Part shown: piece by piece, positions 13,238 to 22,855 of the stretch
Position numbering within the stretch: position 1 is the stretch's first letter
Layout: each line of letters opens with the position of its first letter
From: Phytoactinopolyspora alkaliphila
GTDB taxonomy: Bacteria > Actinomycetota > Actinomycetes > Jiangellales > Jiangellaceae
DNA: 64,000 nucleotides
NCBI RefSeq assembly: GCF_010550695.1
Contig: NZ_JAAGOB010000011.1
Coordinates: 62,001 to 126,000 of the forward strand
Reading direction: 5' to 3'
The notes under the pieces: generated by a model
Seen by the model: only the letters and a program-made list of their open reading frames with translations
The model's database searches: none
What the model was told of the DNA's origin: nothing
Program-made: the position numbers and the translations under genes

Positions 13238-13609
13238 ATGACGGAGACACCTGGCGACACCGGCACCGAGCGGATGGCTGCCGCTCGCGAAGGCATGCCG
13301 GTCCTCGACGTCACAGGCGAGGAGATCGGTACCGTTCAGGAGATGAAGCTCGGTGACCCCGAGGCGGTCACGGGTGCTGGTCAGGAAGCCGGAGACAATC
13401 CGCCCACCATACTCGGACACATCGCCGAGGCATTCACCAGCGACGACCTTCCCGAGCACGTGGCCGAACGGGCCCGGCGGCTGGGCTACCTCAAGGTGAG
13501 TCGCACGATGTCGCCCACCGACATCTTCGTGATCGGCGACCAGGTGGCTGACGTGGCCGACGGCTCGGTGCGGCTCAGCGTGGAGCGGGACGAGCTGTAC
13601 GCGAAGTAG
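13238..13609 (+). CDS. Small PRC-barrel-like protein
   Basis: A 123-residue soluble acidic protein. The segment GMPVLDVTGEEIGTVQEMKLGD near residues 18-39 resembles the start of PRC-barrel domains (a residue pattern of DxxGxxIGxVxEM). The middle (AEAFTSDDLPEHVAERARRLGYLKV) is helical and the end is a short beta-rich segment. PRC-barrel-like proteins occur in RNA processing and photosynthetic complexes and as stress proteins, and no function can be given here. AAAGAAGGG lies just upstream of the ATG. Its 3' end overlaps the convergent HTTM gene by 35 bases. It is the only rightward gene between etfB and glgX. Confidence 0.7.
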   Translation: MTETPGDTGTERMAAAREGMPVLDVTGEEIGTVQEMKLGDPEAVTGAGQEAGDNPPTILGHIAEAFTSDDLPEHVAERARRLGYLKVSRTMSPTDIFVIGDQVADVADGSVRLSVERDELYAK

Positions 13610-14636
13610 GCACCTCCTGCGGGCGTTCCGGCTCGGGGCCGGCCGGCTCACGCGGATCCGGCGCCTGGGCGTCCGTCCTCGCCTGTGCCCGGATCCGGGC
13701 CACCTGCCGCCGCAGCCAGGCGGCGAAGGCCGTGTAGGTCTGATCGCGCACGAAGATGGCATCGGCCGCCAGGATGGCGAGGGAGAACCACGGCAGCGCC
13801 ATGGTCACCGCGATCCCCACGTGCATGCCGAACAGCAGGAGGAGGGCGACCACCCGGGTGATGCGCCGCATGAGCAGGAGCGGGAAGAACAGCTGGACGA
13901 ACACGGTGACGTAACTGCCGATGGTCACCACGACGCCGCTGGTGTACACCATCTCGTTGAGGCCCGGCCAGGCCGCGTACTGGTCGATCTGCAGCGGGTA
14001 GTAGAGCCCTACGCCTTCCTGCCACATCGATCCCCGCACCTTCGACATGCCCGAGACGACGTACACGAAGAACACCTGGGCGGCGATCGCCATCAGGGCG
14101 ACATTGTGGAAGAGCACACCGGGCCAGGCCGGCCAGCGGTCGAGAATCTCCCGCGCGTTCGGTGTACGCCGACGCCGGCGGGCATCGAGCGACCAGTGAG
14201 CCGAGATGTCGGCGAAGCACATGAACAGCAGCGCGATCCGGACCAGATTGTCTCCGGCGTCGGTCGCCAGCGGATTGAGCCGCATCATGCTGGCCAGCAG
14301 GAGAAGGAGGACCGGCGTGACGATCCGGGCTCGCCAGCCGAGCGTGAACAGCACGGCCACCACGCCGAGGACCAGGTACTTGAGGGTGAACACCATCCCC
14401 GAGTCCGTCTCGGAGAAGATGGCAGTGAAGGGGAACTCCCACTCGTCGACCGCTACCCAGGGAAGCAGCCACCGCGAGCCGGCGCCCCACACGTAGTGCC
14501 GGTCCGCGAAGTTCACCAGTAGCGAGCCGAGAACCGCGACACCGAGAAGGATCCGCATCACCGACAGCCCGTAGGTGGCCTTCTTCCCCTCGAACAGCCA
14601 CCGCTCGCCACGGTCGATCAGACTGACCGGGTTCAT
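13575..14636 (-). CDS. HTTM domain membrane protein, cassette copy 1 (gamma-carboxylase-like)
   Basis: A 353-residue polytopic membrane protein with HTTM-domain hallmarks: the N-terminal ATYGLSVMRILLG helix, DRHYVWG, CFADISAHWSLDARR near residues 140-153, and SGMSKVRGSMWQEGVGLYYP. HTTM domains are homologous to the membrane part of vitamin-K-dependent gamma-glutamyl carboxylase. K199 in SGMSK appears to align with the carboxylase active-site lysine. About seven transmembrane segments are visible, and the C-terminus is basic and cytosolic. The ATG at 14636 overlaps the upstream DUF5819 stop (ATGA), so translation is coupled. It is a paralogue of the HTTM gene at 17905-19053. Any reaction on a surface-protein substrate is inference. 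Confidence 0.9.
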   Translation of the reverse strand: MNPVSLIDRGERWLFEGKKATYGLSVMRILLGVAVLGSLLVNFADRHYVWGAGSRWLLPWVAVDEWEFPFTAIFSETDSGMVFTLKYLVLGVVAVLFTLGWRARIVTPVLLLLLASMMRLNPLATDAGDNLVRIALLFMCFADISAHWSLDARRRRRTPNAREILDRWPAWPGVLFHNVALMAIAAQVFFVYVVSGMSKVRGSMWQEGVGLYYPLQIDQYAAWPGLNEMVYTSGVVVTIGSYVTVFVQLFFPLLLMRRITRVVALLLLFGMHVGIAVTMALPWFSLAILAADAIFVRDQTYTAFAAWLRRQVARIRAQARTDAQAPDPREPAGPEPERPQEVPTSRTARPAPR

Positions 14637-15436
14637 CGTGCCGCCCCCAGCCTCTGCATGGTCCGGGCGAAGGCGTCGTCGTCCTGACCCTCCGCGTCGA
14701 GAGTCGGCCGCCATCCGAAGTCCCGGTACGTCCGGCGCGGGTCCTCCGGTTCGGGTTCGAGGCGATCGTCCCAGCGAGGCACCGGAGTGCGTTGCAACTG
14801 GATCTGGACAGACTCGACCTCATCGCCCCAGATCGCTCTCGACACCTGGGTGGCGTAGCCGGTGGCGACGCGGTCCGCACGAACCATCGTCGCCACTCTC
14901 GACGACGACTCACCGCCTTGTTCCTCGATGAGGTCCTCGGCGAGGGGCTTCCAGTTGCTCATGTCGGCGTAGTCGGCGGCCATGATCTCGCGTTGCGCGT
15001 CGCTCAGGCGGTTCCACGCCGAGTTGAGACGGCGATGAAGATTCGACGACAGCCGGCTAGCCCGGGAGGGGGCCGGGCTACCGCGCACCTCAGTCCATTC
15101 GAAGCCCGTGGCCGAGACCCACTCGGTGGTGCGCAGATCTCCCGATGCCGGATCACGCAGCCGGGCACGGACGAGGATCTCGTCCTCGCTGTTCACCGGA
15201 TTCGGGGCGAACAGACTCCAATTCTGCTGGAAGAAGGGCCGGATATACCCGCGGACCTCTTCGTTCACGGCCTCCCGGATCGGATTCGACGGGGCGTTCC
15301 ACAGAAATGTGACAGCGACGTGGATGCCGAGAAGGCCCACGAGGAAGAATGCGACCCCGCGGGCGATCGGTGGCACGGCAATCCGCGCCGCGCGTTGATC
15401 CGTCACGTCTGACACGCCCGCCAGGGTAGACGACAT
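14633..15436 (-). CDS. DUF5819 family protein, cassette copy 1
   Basis: A 267-residue protein with one N-terminal membrane helix (about residues 24-45: ARGVAFFLVGLLGIHVAVTF) and a large predicted extracellular domain. The signature [19 protein letters not shown] defines DUF5819. Further family-like parts are the RLSSNLHRRLNSAWNRLSDA helix and the end motif RTYRDFGWRPT. DUF5819 genes are typically paired with HTTM genes, here by a 4-base ATGA overlap, so the two products probably form a membrane complex. The ATG at 15436 was chosen over the upstream frame start, which would put the terminator hairpin inside the gene. Function is unknown. Confidence 0.88.
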   Translation of the reverse strand: MSSTLAGVSDVTDQRAARIAVPPIARGVAFFLVGLLGIHVAVTFLWNAPSNPIREAVNEEVRGYIRPFFQQNWSLFAPNPVNSEDEILVRARLRDPASGDLRTTEWVSATGFEWTEVRGSPAPSRASRLSSNLHRRLNSAWNRLSDAQREIMAADYADMSNWKPLAEDLIEEQGGESSSRVATMVRADRVATGYATQVSRAIWGDEVESVQIQLQRTPVPRWDDRLEPEPEDPRRTYRDFGWRPTLDAEGQDDDAFARTMQRLGAAR

Positions 15437-15470
15437 GCCGGCTCGGCCATAAGCCGCCCGACGACGACGG

Positions 15471-15500
15471 AGGGGCCGGCGCCTCACGGCGCCGGCCCCT
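15471..15500. terminator. Hairpin between surface-protein gene 1 and its DUF5819 gene
   Basis: A perfect 13-base stem, AGGGGCCGGCGCC (15471-15483) with GGCGCCGGCCCCT (15488-15500), and a TCAC loop. It is located 37 bases past the stop of the surface-protein gene and ahead of the DUF5819 start, so it could terminate or attenuate transcription into the accessory genes. Confidence 0.85.
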
Positions 15501-15536
15501 CCCATGAGGTCAATGACCTACTCGGGGGTTAAGAAC

Positions 15537-17534
15537 TCACCCCTGAGCCGCCATCCGGCGGTTGCGGCTGACCGTGTAGAAGGTGTAGCCACCCGCAGCC
15601 AGCAGGCCGACGATCAGCAGCAGCCAGAGCACGTTGGAACCCGTGTCGGGCAGGTCGCCATCGGCATCCGCGTCGGCATCTGCATCCGCATCCGCGTCAG
15701 CTTCGGCATCAGCGTCCGCATCAACCTCAGCGTCCGCATCAACCTCAGCGTCCGCGTCCACGTCCGCGTCCACGTCCGCGTCCACGTCCGCGTCCACGTC
15801 GGCATCCACATCAGCGTCCACGTCGGCATCCACATCAGCGTCCACGTCGGCATCCACATCAGCGTCCACATCGGCATCCACGTCCGCGTCCACATCGGCG
15901 TCCACGTCCGCGTCCACGTCCGCGTCGACCTCCTGCTCCTGCGCCACGTTCGCGCCGACCTCGGAACGAGCCAGGTCGATCTGGGCCAGGCTGTTCTCCG
16001 GAAGGACATTCACGAACAGCGCCGAAACGCGGAAGGGGCCACCGGACTCCAGAGCCGCCGCTTCGAAGTCGACTGTGGGCACCGTACGCAGGGCCTGCGC
16101 GGCAGCGCTCGCGTTCGGCTGATCCGGCTGGTAGTTCAGCTTGATCGACAGGATGTCGCTCAGAAGATCGAACACGTCTTCCAGGGTGTCCTCGAGTCCG
16201 AGGTCACCGATCAGGCCGTTCAGCGTGCCGCTGAGGTCGTCCACCAGCGCCGTGGCGTCGTCGAGGACGCCGGCGACAATGCTGACCACCGCGTTGAGCA
16301 CACCGCTCACCAAGCCGGACACGGTACCAACGACGCCGGTGCTGTTGTCGACGATCAGGGCATCGCCGGAGGCGATCTCGTCGAGCGTTCCGCTCAGGCT
16401 CAGGTCGAGCGTGCCAGCGATAGATGACGCGTTGAGCGACACATTGAGCTTGACAGCGTCGAGCGCGGTGGAAACCGTGTCGACGATGTCGCCGAGCAGG
16501 TCGCTCAGCAGGTCGCTCAGGTTGTCGAGCAGGCCACCGATGACAGCCGAGCTGAGCAGCTCGGTGTTCGGCGCCTGGCCGTTCAGCCCGCCGTCGAGAA
16601 GCTCGTTGAGATCGATGCTCAGCGTGCCGGTCGTCAGGTCGAGCTCGATGCCCGAACCGCCGATCGTCGAACTGAGCAGCTCCTCGACCGCGCCCTCGAT
16701 GTCGGTGTCGACACTGATGTCCAGATCCAGGCTGGCACCCAGAAGGTTCAGGACCGAGTTGAGGACGCCGAGGGTCCCGAGGGCATCGCCCAGGGCGCCG
16801 TCTTCTCCGAGCACGCTGTTCAGCAGGTCGTCGATCGAACCCGTGGTGTCCAGGATCTCCGGCATGAGTTCACCGAGCGCCGGGATCTGAACGTGGAGCC
16901 AGCCGCCGGCGATCTCGTAGTCGCGGTGCAGCTGGAACTCGTCGGACTCGTTGCCCGTTCCGAAGACGTCGCCTTCGGACGTCGGGCCGATCAGGTGCGC
17001 CTCCGACGAGATCGCGCCGAGCTCGAGCTCGACGTCCGCGATCAGGTCGGTGAGCTCCTCACCGAGAAGATCGGTGAGGTCGAAGTTGGCGTTGCCGGGG
17101 AACCCGGCATCCACGCCGGTGCCGACGCCGCCGTTGTCCGCGACCGCGCCGGTCGCGGCGCTCGAGGTCGCGTCGTCCTCGGCCGTCGCCCACTGGTTGA
17201 CGGCGCCGAGCTCGATGATGTCGCTCAGCGGAAGCTGAAGTCCGCCTGGAATGTCGAGCTCGATGGAGTTGAGCAGCTCGACAGTCAGCGGGTTGGCGTC
17301 GGTCTCAGGCTCCGGCGTACCGAAGTTCTCCACCTCAACACCGGCCAGCTCGACGATGTCGTCGAGGTCGACGCCGAGCAGTTCACCGGCGAGGAACCTC
17401 GCTTCAGCGCGCGAGTAGTCTCCTTCGTCCGCCGACGCTGGCATCGCCAGACTCGTCGACGCCAGGGCGGTTATCGCCCCTGCGGCGACGGTGCTGGACA
17501 GCAACCGTCGACGCCTTGCACTTTCAAACGTCAT
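15537..17534 (-). CDS. LPxTG-anchored surface protein with DADV repeats, choice-of-anchor G type, copy 1
   Basis: A 665-residue secreted wall protein. A signal peptide (about 1-33, ending ASADEGDYS) is followed by a conserved region: [18 protein letters not shown], then [12 protein letters not shown], then [14 protein letters not shown]. That region fits the choice-of-anchor G family, an assignment from memory. A leucine/asparagine-rich mid-region and an Asp/Ala/Val stalk of about 90 residues follow. The end carries the sortase motif LPDTG, a hydrophobic helix and a basic tail. The ATG at 17534 follows AGGGGAGAA, the same ribosome site as copy 2. The upstream extension of the frame is not credible. 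No sortase gene is in the window. It is paralogous to 19940-22474 but has a much shorter stalk. Confidence 0.92.
15655..15932 (-). repeat. Dodecamer repeat tract encoding (Asp-Ala-Asp-Val)n, short version
   Basis: About 280 bases of tandem 12-mers with GAC-GCN-GAC-GTN pattern on the coding strand, degenerating toward the 3' end to [11 protein letters not shown] and DADADA. The tract encodes a highly acidic stalk just before the LPDTG signal. Third-base differences break perfect DNA identity, though exact 12-mers recur. Confidence 0.92.
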
Positions 17535-17904
17535 GCCTTCTCCCCTAGGGCAGTACCAAAAGGTGTCGCGGCCATGAAAGTTAGACAGCGCTCGCCGCGA
17601 CATGACCAAGACACTATCGGCATGAAGTTCGCTTGTCGCATGGGTAATGATCGTCCGTTCGGACATAAATTATGACCGTCCAGGCACTGGTCAGTGAGGA
17701 ATGCGACAATAGGACCATAGGGCCGTAGTGTCCTATTCTGGACATTTCACTCATCTGCCCTCAAGCAGCTCACACGCGTGCCGGCCTACCGTATTCACCA
17801 ACGCGACAAAATGGCGCCGGCAGATGCCGGCGCCATGAGGTAGGGCGAATTCGGAGGACGGGGCCACCACGACGGGCCAGCCACATCCGCCGGCACGCAC
17901 CGAA
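17535..17904. other. 370-base gap upstream of surface-protein gene 1
   Basis: The gap holds the 5' leader and promoter of the leftward surface-protein gene and the tail of the upstream HTTM gene. Part of it (about 17570-17750) is visibly richer in A/T than the genes around it. It contains two palindromes, CATAAATTATG at 17664-17674 and TGTCC-N6-GGACA at 17729-17744, and a terminator hairpin at 17811-17836. No credible coding frame was seen. Confidence 0.6.
17811..17836. terminator. Hairpin terminator after HTTM gene 2
   Basis: A perfect 11-base stem, ATGGCGCCGGC (17811-17821) with GCCGGCGCCAT (17826-17836), loop AGAT. It lies 69 bases past the HTTM copy 2 stop, separating the two duplicated cassettes. 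Confidence 0.75.
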
Positions 17905-19053
17905 TCACGTATCAGTGCGGACCGTTCGGACGATTCCGACGGCTTCTTTGCGCTCCCGTTGCTGGACCACATGTTCGGCCGCACTTTGCTCGAGTTCCGC
18001 CGAAGGCGTGCCGGCACCCGGACGGTCGCGGCGGCGCCGCTCGTGCCAACGCTGTCTGACCCAGTCCTGGATGCTCGTGTAAGTCGCATCACGGATGAAG
18101 ATCATGTCGCCCGCCATGATGAACATCGAGAAGAACGGCAGTCCCATGATGAAGGCGATACCGAGGTGCATGGCCGCGACGCCGAGCAGGGCGATGATCC
18201 GCGTCGACCGGCGCAGCAGCATCAACGGGAAGAATACCTGGATGAACACCGAGAAGTAGGTGGCGATCATGACGGCCAGGGCACTGGCGCCGAGCAGCTC
18301 GTTGATCGCCGGCCACGGCGAGTACTGCGACACCTGTAGCGGGTAGTAAATGCCGGTGCCGTCCTGCCACCGTTCTCCCTGGACCTTGTACAGGCCGGAG
18401 GCCAGGTAGATCATGCAGATCTGGGCACCGATGGCGACGATGGCCAGATTGTGGAACAGCACTGCCACGCGCGCCGCGTTCTCCCGCAGCTGAGGCTTCA
18501 CCTGCAGCTGGATCGGACTCTTCCACTCCCCGGTGGTCTGCTTGGCGCGCCTCCTGGCGTCCAGCGACCATCTGCCGGACATGTCGGCGAAGCACATGTA
18601 GAAGAACAGGATCCGGAAGATGTTGTCGCTCTGGTCTCCGTATATCGGCTGGGACTCGATCAGGCTGACCCAGAGCACCAGGATGATCGGCGCAAGGAGA
18701 CGCGTGCGCCAGCCGAGAACAAGCAGCACCAGCAGCACGGCGATCACGGCCAGCTTGGCGTCCAGCTCGAACTGGCTGCTTCCGCCGCTGATCATCGTAA
18801 ACGGCCAGCTGAAGCCACCGTTGTCGTCGATGGGCTCCAGCCAGCGGGCGGCGTCACCCCACAGATAGTGCCGGTTCAGCCAGTTGGCCGCCAGGAAGCC
18901 CAGAGCGGTGAGGCCGAACAGAATGCGCACGAGGGCGATGCCGTAGGTGGCCCGTTTCGCGCCGAGCAGCCAATCCTCGCCATCCTGGAGAACCGGCATG
19001 ATCTTGTCGCCGACAGGGTTGGACCGCTTGACCGGCGCTTGAATCTCACTCAC
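17905..19053 (-). CDS. HTTM domain membrane protein, cassette copy 2 (gamma-carboxylase-like)
   Basis: A 382-residue polytopic membrane protein and clear paralogue of the gene at 13575-14636. It shows [38 protein letters not shown] near residues 154-169, [20 protein letters not shown] near 219-238, and [21 protein letters not shown]-like terminal helices. K223, in SGLYK, occupies the position of K199 in copy 1 and seems to align with the catalytic lysine of vitamin-K-dependent carboxylase. The hydrophilic C-terminal tail (about 50 residues) is rich in Arg and Glu and longer than in copy 1. The ATG at 19053 overlaps the DUF5819 stop (ATGA). Its action on the neighbouring surface protein is a hypothesis. 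Confidence 0.92.
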
Positions 19054-19784
19054 CGCGTGAACCTCTCGATCGCCGCCGCGAAAGCTTCCCGATCCTGGTT
19101 GTCGAACTCGACCAGCGGCCTCCGGCCGAACTCACGGGACCGAGGCTCGGGTTCGATATCACGGTGCCGGTCTGCGAATCGCGGTGCTGGATACTCCTCG
19201 GTCTTGAACTGGACGTACGTCAAGCCCGCGTCCTCGCCCCAGTATGCGTAGGCGAACTGTGTCGCATAGGCGGTGATGGTTTCGTCGTAGCGCAGGACAT
19301 ACGAGATGCGGCCGGACGGAGATCTGTCCTCTGCTTGCATCAACCGAGCCTTCAGCCGATCCCAGGCGTCCGAGTGGTAATGGCTTGCGAGCGCCCGGCG
19401 CTCCTCGCTGTTCAAGCGTCCGTGTTGCTGGCCGATACGGGTCGCGAGGCGGCGGGTGACGATACCGACTCGAGAGGGCGTGAGGTTGTGCAGGACGGCT
19501 GCCTTGATCTCCAGATCGGTGACGTCCACCCACTCGGTGTGCCGCTCATCGTCGAACCAGCCCCGAACCAGCAGGGACCGCTCTGTGCTGATCGGGTTGG
19601 GGGCGAACAAGCTCCAGTTCTGCTGGAAGAACGGCAGCATGTAGGAATCGAGGGGTTCCTTCACGGCACTCTTGGCAGCGTTGTCCGGACCCACGAACAG
19701 CGCCGTCGCCGCCAGATGTGCCGTCAGCACGATGCCGAGCGCACCGGCCAGGAATTTCAGCCAGGCCGGTCGTGTCTGCTGCAT
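19050..19784 (-). CDS. DUF5819 family protein, cassette copy 2
   Basis: A 244-residue protein with an N-terminal membrane anchor (about 8-32) and an external domain bearing the DUF5819 signature [16 protein letters not shown] near residues 49-64. It is followed by [10 protein letters not shown], a helical [18 protein letters not shown] segment and [11 protein letters not shown] near the end, all in the order seen in copy 1. The overall resemblance to copy 1 is family-level rather than near-identical, so the duplication is old. It is coupled to the downstream HTTM gene by ATGA. It lies 155 bases past the surface-protein stop, a gap that includes a strong hairpin. Confidence 0.9.
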
Positions 19785-19878: not shown

Positions 19879-19916
19879 CGGTGGGTCCACACCAACCGTT
19901 TGGTGTGGACCCACCG
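19879..19916. terminator. Hairpin between surface-protein gene 2 and its DUF5819 gene
   Basis: A perfect 17-base stem, CGGTGGGTCCACACCAA (19879-19895) with TTGGTGTGGACCCACCG (19900-19916), loop CCGT. It begins 24 bases past the surface-protein stop. The position is the same as that of the hairpin in cassette 1, but the sequence is unrelated. Confidence 0.88.
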
Positions 19917-19939: not shown

Positions 19940-22474
19940 CTACTCGACGAGCTCGCTACGCCGGCCGCTGGCGGTGAAGACCACCACACCTGCAGCCAGC
20001 ATCAGCGCCACCACCATCGCGATCAGCATGATGTTGCCGGCACCCGTGTCGGGCAGACCGTCGTTGTCGGCGTCCGCATCGGCATTCGCGTCGGTCTCAG
20101 CATCCGCGTCAGCGTCGGCCTCGGCGTCAGCATCCGCGTCGGTCTCAGCGTCAGCATCCACGTCCGCATCGACATCGGCGTCCACGTCCGCATCCACGTC
20201 CGCATCGACATCGGCATCCACGTCCGCATCGACATCAGCATCGACATCCGCGTCCACGTCCGCATCCACGTCCGCATCGACATCGGCATCCACGTCCGCA
20301 TCGACATCAGCATCGACATCGGCATCCACGTCCGCATCGACATCAGCATCGACATCGACATCCGCGTCCACATCGGCGTCCACATCGGCATCGACATCCG
20401 CGTCCACGTCAGCATCGACATCCGCGTCCACATCGGCGTCCACGTCCGCATCCACGTCCGCATCGACATCCGCGTCCACATCGGTATCGACATCGGCGTC
20501 CACGTCAGCATCGACATCCGCGTCCACGTCAGCATCCACGTCCGCATCGACATCCGCGTCCACATCGGCATCGACATCCGCGTCCACATCGGTATCGACA
20601 TCGGCGTCCACGTCAGCATCGACATCCGCGTCCACGTCAGCATCCACGTCCGCATCGACATCAGCGTCCACGTCCGCGTCCACGTCCGCATCGACATCCG
20701 CGTCCACATCGGCGTCCACATCGGCGTCCACGTCAACTTCAGCGTCCACGTCAGCGTCCACGTCCGCATCGACATCCGCGTCCACGTCAGCATCCACATC
20801 AGCGTCGACATCCGCATCCACATCAGCGTCGACATCCGCATCCACGTCCGCGTCGACATCCGCATCCACGTCCGCGTCGACGTCGACCTCCTGCTCCTGC
20901 TGAATGTTGACACCAACTTCGGACCACGCGACCGTCATGCCCACCGCGTCGGCCTCCGGCAGCAGCGTGATCTGGAACGCGGCCACACCCAGGGGCTCCT
21001 CGGACGGGAAGTCCGCTGCTCCGACGTCGAACGTCGGAACAATCCTCAGCGCCTGGGCGGCGACCGAGTTCATCGGCTGATCCGGCTGATAGTTCAGCGT
21101 GATCGAGATGATGTCGGCGAGGATCTCACCGATCGGAGTCAACACGTCGGTGAGGTCGTCCACCAGGCCGGCGACGGTTTCACCTAGCGTGGTGATCAGG
21201 CCAGAGCCGGTGTCCAGCACCAGGTTGCCGATGGTCGGGAGCAGGGTGTTGAGGGCGGTCACGGCCAGGGTGCACGCTGCCGGCGCCAGCAAACCGCTGC
21301 AGTCCTGGGCGACCTCTGCGTCACCGGACAGGAACTCCGCCAGAGTTCCGCTGGCAGAGACATCGATGACCTCTCGGAGCACCACGGTGGTGGAGGCCAT
21401 CAACGAGATGTCGAGCTGAGCCGCCGCCAGGGCACCGTTCAGGACGTCCACCAGGTCAGATGTCCAGCCGTCGAGAAGATTGCCGAGGTTCTCGGCAAGT
21501 CCGTCGATCACCGCGTTGCTCAGCAGCTGGGTGTTCGGCGGCTGGCCGTTGAGGCCACCGTCGATCAGCTCGTTGAGGTCGATGGTCAGGGTGCCGTTCA
21601 GCAGATCGAGTTCGACACCGGTTCCTTCACCGATGGGTGTGCTGAGGAACTCTTCCAGAGCCTCCTGCAGCGCTGTCTCAATCGAGACCTGAACGTCGAT
21701 GTCGAGGCCAGGCACGATCTCGAGCAGGCCGAGCACACCGCCGAGCAAGGCCGCGATATCGCCGTCGGGGCCAGCGAGGTCGTTCAGGGCATCCTCGATC
21801 GGCCCGACCAGCTCGACGATCGCTTCGGCCAGGTCAGCCGCGGCCGGAACGGTGAGGATCAGCTCGCCACCGGCGATCTCGTAGTCGCGGATGATCTCGA
21901 ACTCGTCCGAGGGGTCGTCCGGGGCGACCGCGTGCGCCTCCGAAGAGATGGCTCCGAGCTCAAGCTCGAGGTCGGCGATGAGATCGGTGAGGTCGTCGCC
22001 GAGCAGATCGGTGAGGTCGAAGTTCGCGTTGCCTGGGAACCCGTCCTCCACACCGGTGCCGACGCCGCCGTTGTCGGCGACCGCGCCTGTGGCGGCGTGC
22101 GACGTGGCGCCGGGCTCCGCAGCGGCCCACTGGTTCACCGCGCCCAGTTCGATGATGTCGCTCAACGGCAGCTGAAGACCGCCGGGGATGGTGACGTTCA
22201 GCGTGTTCAGAACCGTCAGGTCGAGCGGGTTCGCGTCGAAGACCGTCTCGTCGAGCCCGTCGTTGATGGCTTCGACACCAGCGAGCTCGGCGACGTTGTC
22301 GAGGTCCAGGCCCAGAATCTCGCCGGAGAGGAACCGTGCCGCCCCGCGCGAGTAGTCGCCTTCTGCGGCTGCCGCGGGCGTCAGCGATGTCCCCACAGCG
22401 AATATGGGGATCACGGCCGCGGCTATTGCCGTTCGGCTGAGCCGCTGCCTCCCCTTGATGTTGGGTACTGCCAT
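19940..22474 (-). CDS. LPxTG-anchored surface protein with long DADV stalk, choice-of-anchor G type, copy 2
   Basis: An 844-residue secreted wall protein. A signal peptide (about 1-38, ending [11 protein letters not shown]) precedes the conserved head ([57 protein letters not shown]), clearly paralogous to copy 1. The mid-region is Leu/Asp rich and includes one cysteine pair ([15 protein letters not shown]). A stalk of about 275 residues made of DADV repeats follows, then LPDTG, a membrane helix and a basic tail (GRRSELVE). The ATG at 22474 has AGGGGAGAA upstream. The product is a candidate adhesin or S-layer-like stalked protein, and its ligand is unknown. The Asp-rich stalk should bind divalent cations or repel neighbouring surfaces. 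Confidence 0.92.
20058..20888 (-). repeat. Dodecamer repeat tract encoding (Asp-Ala-Asp-Val)n, long version
   Basis: About 830 bases of tandem 12-mers (coding pattern GAC-GCN-GAC-GTN) with occasional DTDV, DVDV and AEVDV variants. Higher-order units recur, for example near 20470-20550 and 20590-20650, where the same string of variant 12-mers repeats. This indicates duplication of larger blocks. The tract is about three times as long as in the paralogue. Confidence 0.93.
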
Positions 22475-22855
22475 GTGTTCTCCCCTAAAGGTCAGCATCT
22501 CTCCACCCATGTATTGGGCGAGAGCTATCAAGAAAATCCGACGCCTGACGGTACCGCTAAGTACCGGCAATGTCAGTTAAAAGCCCACACCGGTTTGACA
22601 AGGCTCATCGTAAATGTCATGACACCGCAGACTTTTTTGATAATTAGCGCGCATTTGTCATGAACCTGCCGAAGCGGACAATCGCGTGCGCGGATATCTG
22701 CCCGAACCCAGACTTATGCCCCATGGCGATGGCGCACGCGGACGCACGCTTCAAAACCAACCGTTACCGATTCTTTACCAACAACGCGGCGGACGATACC
22801 CCCTCAAAAGCCGCGAGCAGTGGAGTCGAGATCGGCTCTTTCAACATCATTTCGG
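22475..22855. other. 381-base gap upstream of surface-protein gene 2
   Basis: This holds the leader and probable promoter of the leftward surface-protein gene and the downstream end of the acyltransferase. It is noticeably richer in A/T (for example 22630-22660, with a run of T) than surrounding genes. It contains the palindrome TGTCATGACA at 22615-22624 and a second TTTGTCATGA at 22653-22662. No convincing coding frame was seen; the rightward open frame starting at 22660 lacks codon bias. Confidence 0.55.

Follow-up and report, generated by a model that had tools for sequence, protein, structure and literature searches.

The stretch of DNA considered here (the window) comprises 64,000 nucleotides of the soil actinobacterium Phytoactinopolyspora alkaliphila, contig NZ_JAAGOB010000011.1, positions 62,001 to 126,000. 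On the minus strand of the window lie two tandem modules with the order surface protein, hairpin, DUF5819, HTTM, and in both modules the end of the DUF5819 gene overlaps the start of the HTTM gene (Table 1). By Pfam and NCBIfam, the three genes of each module are assigned to choice-of-anchor G (NF033766), DUF5819 (PF19136) and HTTM (PF05090). The closest loci to these modules are found in Phytoactinopolyspora, and DUF5819 genes occur in every near-complete genome of the order, mostly as two genes near each other. The protein at issue is HTTM, which has a conserved lysine matching K218 of human gamma-glutamyl carboxylase (GGCX), a member of the vitamin K-dependent carboxylases (VKGC).

The pattern SG-x2-K-V-x-G-x2-W-x-[ED]-G-x-G-x-YYPLQ is present in both HTTM copies, as an earlier note on this DNA had claimed, and the GGCX active-site stretch quoted there was essentially correct (the actual sequence is AGVKKLDADWVEGY). 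That the lysine of the pattern aligns with K218, also proposed in the note, is borne out by HMMER, HHalign and MAFFT, which agree in placing K199 of HTTM1 and K223 of HTTM2 on this residue; the K218 numbering agrees with that of the PDB chain and of PMC12589487. The window HTTMs have one residue more between Lys and Trp than GGCX. A gap-free, Trp-anchored alignment, in which the lysine falls on K217, was rejected because in all three programs the extra residue follows the lysine. The transmembrane helix ahead of the motif (TM5) also places the lysine on K218.

A profile of 14 homologues, compared with all PDB chain sequences, found human GGCX as its sole, weak match (E 0.23), and in its alignment to the GGCX segment AGVKKLDAD-WVEGY, K223 meets K218 and H296 meets H287. 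HHalign with 131 homologues against VKGC-type sequences gave P 99.8% and E 1e-27 with identical residue pairing, and this profile-profile result is decisive for the homology, as read from sequence, of HTTM to the VKGC membrane domain. In the AlphaFold model of HTTM2 (mean predicted local distance difference test score, pLDDT, 91.9), K223 lies where the long TM5 helix (residues 187-225) ends. All 14 PDB matches that Foldseek returned for this model at E <= 0.001 were GGCX entries, with probability 1.00; with TM-scores, normalized by query, of 0.55-0.61, these are fold-level matches. The GGCX membrane-domain fold is thus shown for HTTM at the level of a predicted structure. Besides K218, features conserved from GGCX are H287, F299 and the Trp/Gly pair after the lysine.

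Among the 10 lysines of the 345-residue HTTM2 construct, K223 is the only strongly conserved one, being present in 58 of 58 homologues, with the next best at 60%. The search patterns that fetched the homologues exclude the lysine, and because K223 is the only invariant lysine of the ten, its conservation is more than chance. In HTTMs linked to DUF5819 the residue is Lys in 122 of 123 and Arg in one; it is conserved among HTTMs that neighbour surface-protein genes, one of two points on which the earlier note had made its proposal depend. When 60 diverse HTTM proteins were aligned, the K218 column held 58 Lys and two Arg, and the H287 column 58 His. The lysine is thus conserved across the whole HTTM superfamily, and is therefore no diagnostic mark of a carboxylase. 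The enzyme activity that the note had read from the lysine still appears likely, given the VKGC homology, the K218 match and the strict conservation.

Residues that serve carboxylation in GGCX are a different matter. There, H160 and N159 hold the substrate glutamate, and the H160A change compromises carboxylation (PMC12589487). In the window HTTMs the H160 position is Gly or Ser; it is never His in the two-component clade described below, and among the 60 diverse HTTMs His at this place is confined to the VKGC clade plus a few others. All DUF5819-linked HTTMs have Gly, Ser or another small residue at this position, after which an Asp and an Arg are conserved, (S/G)-D-N-x2-R, and the same GGD or SGD motif is seen in true SdpB proteins and in HTTMs with short SdpA-like partners. 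The N159 position is Q, A or G in two-component HTTMs, and where GGCX has N290, a residue lining the path of the quinone tail (its tunnel), 121 of 123 DUF5819-linked HTTMs have Ile, the window copies included. The lumenal propeptide-binding domain PF22777 was not found by Pfam in the window HTTM chains. A canonical VKGC homologue is encoded in the same genome, outside the window. It matches GGCX over both domains (phmmer E 5e-48) and retains the LNH-type motif, K218, H287, N290 and PF22777; it is a natural positive control, revealing what the window HTTMs have lost. Its gene directly follows putative peptide-type ATP-binding cassette transporter genes (binding protein, two permeases, ATPase).

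In each of the 78 named loci the partner gene, DUF5819, immediately precedes HTTM, and the pairing occurs also on Bacillota plasmids. In a tree built without the motif columns, DUF5819-linked HTTMs, SdpB, HTTMs with SdpA-like partners and HTTM-SdpA-like fusions form one group (Shimodaira-Hasegawa-like approximate likelihood ratio test, SH-aLRT, 96), and VKGC is separate (SH-aLRT 99). The fusions, in which HTTM is joined to a C-terminal transmembrane helix and a W-x-MFAP-x-P (SdpA-like) domain, occur naturally in two actinobacterial genomes (L146, L147) and in the haloarchaeon Halorussus (L266). The added helix and domain occupy the place of VKGC's TM9 and lumenal domain, and the fusions, the archaeal one included, support the view that the two proteins are one functional unit. 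An HHalign match of DUF5819 to the short SdpA-like partners was set aside as circular, the alignment having drawn in DUF5819 rows. DUF5819-2 was modeled by AlphaFold with pLDDT 91.5, and Foldseek found no match to this model in the PDB. A nearly invariant histidine, H23 of DUF5819-2, lies inside its transmembrane helix and is present in the Bacillota members too. It could supply in trans the histidine lost by HTTM.

The account that we favour, and hold to be fairly probable, is that HTTM and DUF5819 together are an SdpAB-like two-component membrane enzyme, a distant and split relative of VKGC, whose task would be to modify or mature the secreted protein of the upstream gene. The HTTM lysine would still activate bound menaquinol at the outer face of the membrane. 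DUF5819 would replace TM9 and the lumenal half, both missing from HTTM, with its QNWxxFAPxP segment in the position of the linker between the transmembrane and lumenal parts of GGCX, and the unit would act on the secreted protein during its emergence from the membrane. Carboxylation of Glu or Asp is probably not the reaction, because H160 is lost and the NH motif is replaced by (S/G)-D-x3-R; another quinol-driven or processing reaction may take its place. An enzyme that probably depends on menaquinol, and that works on the surface protein encoded upstream at the outside of the membrane, is proposed because of the SdpAB analogy and the kept K218/H287 core.

Several observations weigh against this account. 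Arg replaces the lysine in two of the 60 diverse HTTMs. DUF5819 as a detectable homologue of the VKGC lumenal domain had to be rejected (HHalign P about 1% or less; no Foldseek match); there being no detectable similarity, we infer equivalence of role by positional analogy, and the suggested replacement of the lumenal domain would rest on gene order, the fusions and a shared tryptophan motif. A choice-of-anchor G gene nearby in 44 of the 78 loci speaks for the account, but 34 loci show none, some of them ending at contig edges, and one genus (G326, G344, G371) has choice-of-anchor G proteins and no DUF5819. A Fisher test of genome co-occurrence was not relied on, its counts having come from two different genome sets.

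The proteins encoded directly upstream of DUF5819-HTTM vary widely. In Curtobacterium a protein rich in repeats, whose end is LAFTG-like, is found, in Streptomyces an ice-binding protein with GTTGATTA repeats, and in Virgibacillus and Macrococcus small secreted bacteriocin-like peptides that contain a hydrophobic, glycine-rich segment. Only the Phytoactinopolyspora clade has the Asp-Ala-Asp-Val stalk; in other groups the partners carry EVDGT (as in Jiangella), NADATTATNGAT or GTTGATTA repeats, or lack an acidic stalk altogether, and Microbacterium partners contain about 5% Asp. What is conserved as a target can therefore not be the stalk, and as a general substrate it was rejected. No conserved target residue could be named in the choice-of-anchor G domain, where the alignments are too gappy. 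A strong hairpin follows the surface gene, ahead of DUF5819, in 43 of 52 loci, as opposed to 18 of 90 after HTTM and 0 of 94 after DUF5819; this would fit a surface protein produced in larger amounts than its maturation pair. Among the papers available to the search, none dealt with DUF5819, choice-of-anchor G or HTTM together with SdpA, and none was found connecting the choice-of-anchor G family to DUF5819 or HTTM.

Table 1. Features of the two modules and of related loci. Coordinates are those of the window unless prefixed by one of our own genome or locus handles (G, L).
Feature	Coordinates	Strand	Description
Convergent open reading frame	13238..13609	plus	overlapped by HTTM1 3' end (13575-13609)
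HTTM1	13575..14636	minus	353 residues; HTTM/PF05090 membrane protein; SdpB-like under family cut-off
HTTM1 motif lysine	14042-14040	minus	K199 codon; motif residues 195-216; K199 = GGCX K218
DUF5819 partner 1	14633..15436	minus	267 residues; one transmembrane helix; end overlaps HTTM1 start
Hairpin 1	15469..15502	minus	strong, GC-rich, no T run; between surface gene 1 and DUF5819-1
Surface protein 1	15537..17537	minus	choice-of-anchor G (NF033766), Asp-Ala-Asp-Val stalk, LPDTG; start codon approximate
HTTM2	17905..19053	minus	382 residues; H296 = GGCX H287; S142 occupies H160 position
HTTM2 motif lysine	18387-18385	minus	K223 codon; motif residues 219-240; K223 = GGCX K218
DUF5819 partner 2	19050..19784	minus	244 residues; overlaps HTTM2 start
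Hairpin 2	19879..19916	minus	~17 base pairs; after surface gene 2, before DUF5819-2
Surface protein 2	19940..22480	minus	choice-of-anchor G, long Asp-Ala-Asp-Val stalk, LPDTG; start codon approximate
Host VKGC homologue	G000:C30:276660-278057 (L001:1435-2832)		canonical; same genome
Bacteriocin-like peptides	L264:2003-2308, L264:2556-2861, L265:3721-4080		precede DUF5819-HTTM
DCC1-like thiol-disulfide oxidoreductase	L264:3872-5212, L265:5602-5979, L230:6130-6528		fused to or directly after HTTM
FAD oxidoreductase	L088:6112-7557, L111:6128-7594, L114:2763-4256, L118:4705-6285, L123:6092-7564, L127:2534-3976, L129:2074-3969, L227:1598-3088		carotenoid desaturase/ketolase type; beside DUF5819-HTTM

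Other explanations of the same loci have been weighed. Following the earlier note, which had suggested possible carboxylation of Asp or Glu on the partner protein, HTTM could be a vitamin K-dependent carboxylase acting on the Asp-rich stalk, and the homology, K218, H287 and the conserved Trp, together with the acidic stalk of the window copies and the automatic gene ontology term for peptidyl-glutamate carboxylation on some such genes, are all consistent with it. Against the reading stand the loss of H160, the changes at N159 and N290, the absence of PF22777 and a stalk that is not shared among partners, and the genome already has a canonical VKGC homologue; classical Asp/Glu carboxylation by the window HTTMs is unlikely, and we regard the proposal as a whole as quite improbable. 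A non-catalytic role in export or assembly, with the lysine structural or lipid-binding, would suit the NCBIfam SdpB models, which are named 'export', and the great sequence differences among the paired secreted proteins. It must contend with charged or polar residues at the catalytic positions K218 and H287, which hardly vary from one HTTM type to another, and seems unlikely to us.

It is also conceivable, if very improbable, that HTTM is a thiol or redox enzyme linked to quinone, and that its main role has no specific tie to the adjoining surface protein. No redox gene is seen within the window modules, and gene order and hairpins tie HTTM-DUF5819 to the surface gene. What speaks for such a role comes from other loci: a DCC1-like thiol-disulfide oxidoreductase fused to HTTM or directly after it, a thioredoxin that adjoins the archaeal HTTM fusion, and a flavin adenine dinucleotide (FAD)-dependent oxidoreductase that recurs beside DUF5819-HTTM in several genera as a possible redox partner.

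Beyond the favoured two-component enzyme, a wider proposal may be put forward that we consider doubtful at this stage: DUF5819-HTTM and SdpA-SdpB might be one family of split, quinol-driven VKGC relatives with a K218-type base, which carry out a novel modification of secreted proteins, from adhesin-like proteins anchored in the wall to bacteriocin-like peptides, across Actinomycetota, Bacillota and, as fusions, haloarchaea. If the SdpAB lineage keeps the carboxylase base without the carboxylation histidine, the vitamin K-type engine has perhaps been reused for other protein modifications. It is important to treat with caution the automatic label 'peptidyl-glutamic acid carboxylation' that many HTTM proteins carry.

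Compared with GGCX and bacterial VKGC (PF05090 + PF22777), the window HTTMs have the same membrane-domain fold, K218, H287, F299 and Trp/Gly pair; unlike these enzymes, they lack the H160-N159 pair and a fused lumenal domain, have Ile for N290 and a separate DUF5819 partner, and adjoin partner proteins without a known propeptide. The surface proteins carry the domain of the choice-of-anchor G family, which scores far over the NF033766 cut-off of 45 in both (247 and 242 bits), and both terminate in LPDTG sorting signals. SdpA-SdpB of the Bacillus SDP system (PF17418, TIGR04034, TIGR04033) is likewise composed of an HTTM protein with a GGD-type TM4 motif and a single-transmembrane partner with a Trp-x2-Phe-x3-Pro type motif, encoded as a separate gene directly upstream of HTTM, and a secreted-protein gene is adjacent. 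There, SdpC processing requires SdpA and SdpB (PMC6818787); here, the surface protein would be the substrate. A Streptomyces locus of this lineage has a full sdpC-sdpA-sdpB operon, in the same order of substrate, single-transmembrane partner and HTTM as in the window. The two systems differ in that the window HTTMs reach 47.1 and 50.7 bits with TIGR04033, the SdpB model, whose cut-off is 178.4, that their partner is DUF5819 rather than PF17418, and that a large LPXTG surface protein stands in the place of a small toxin precursor.

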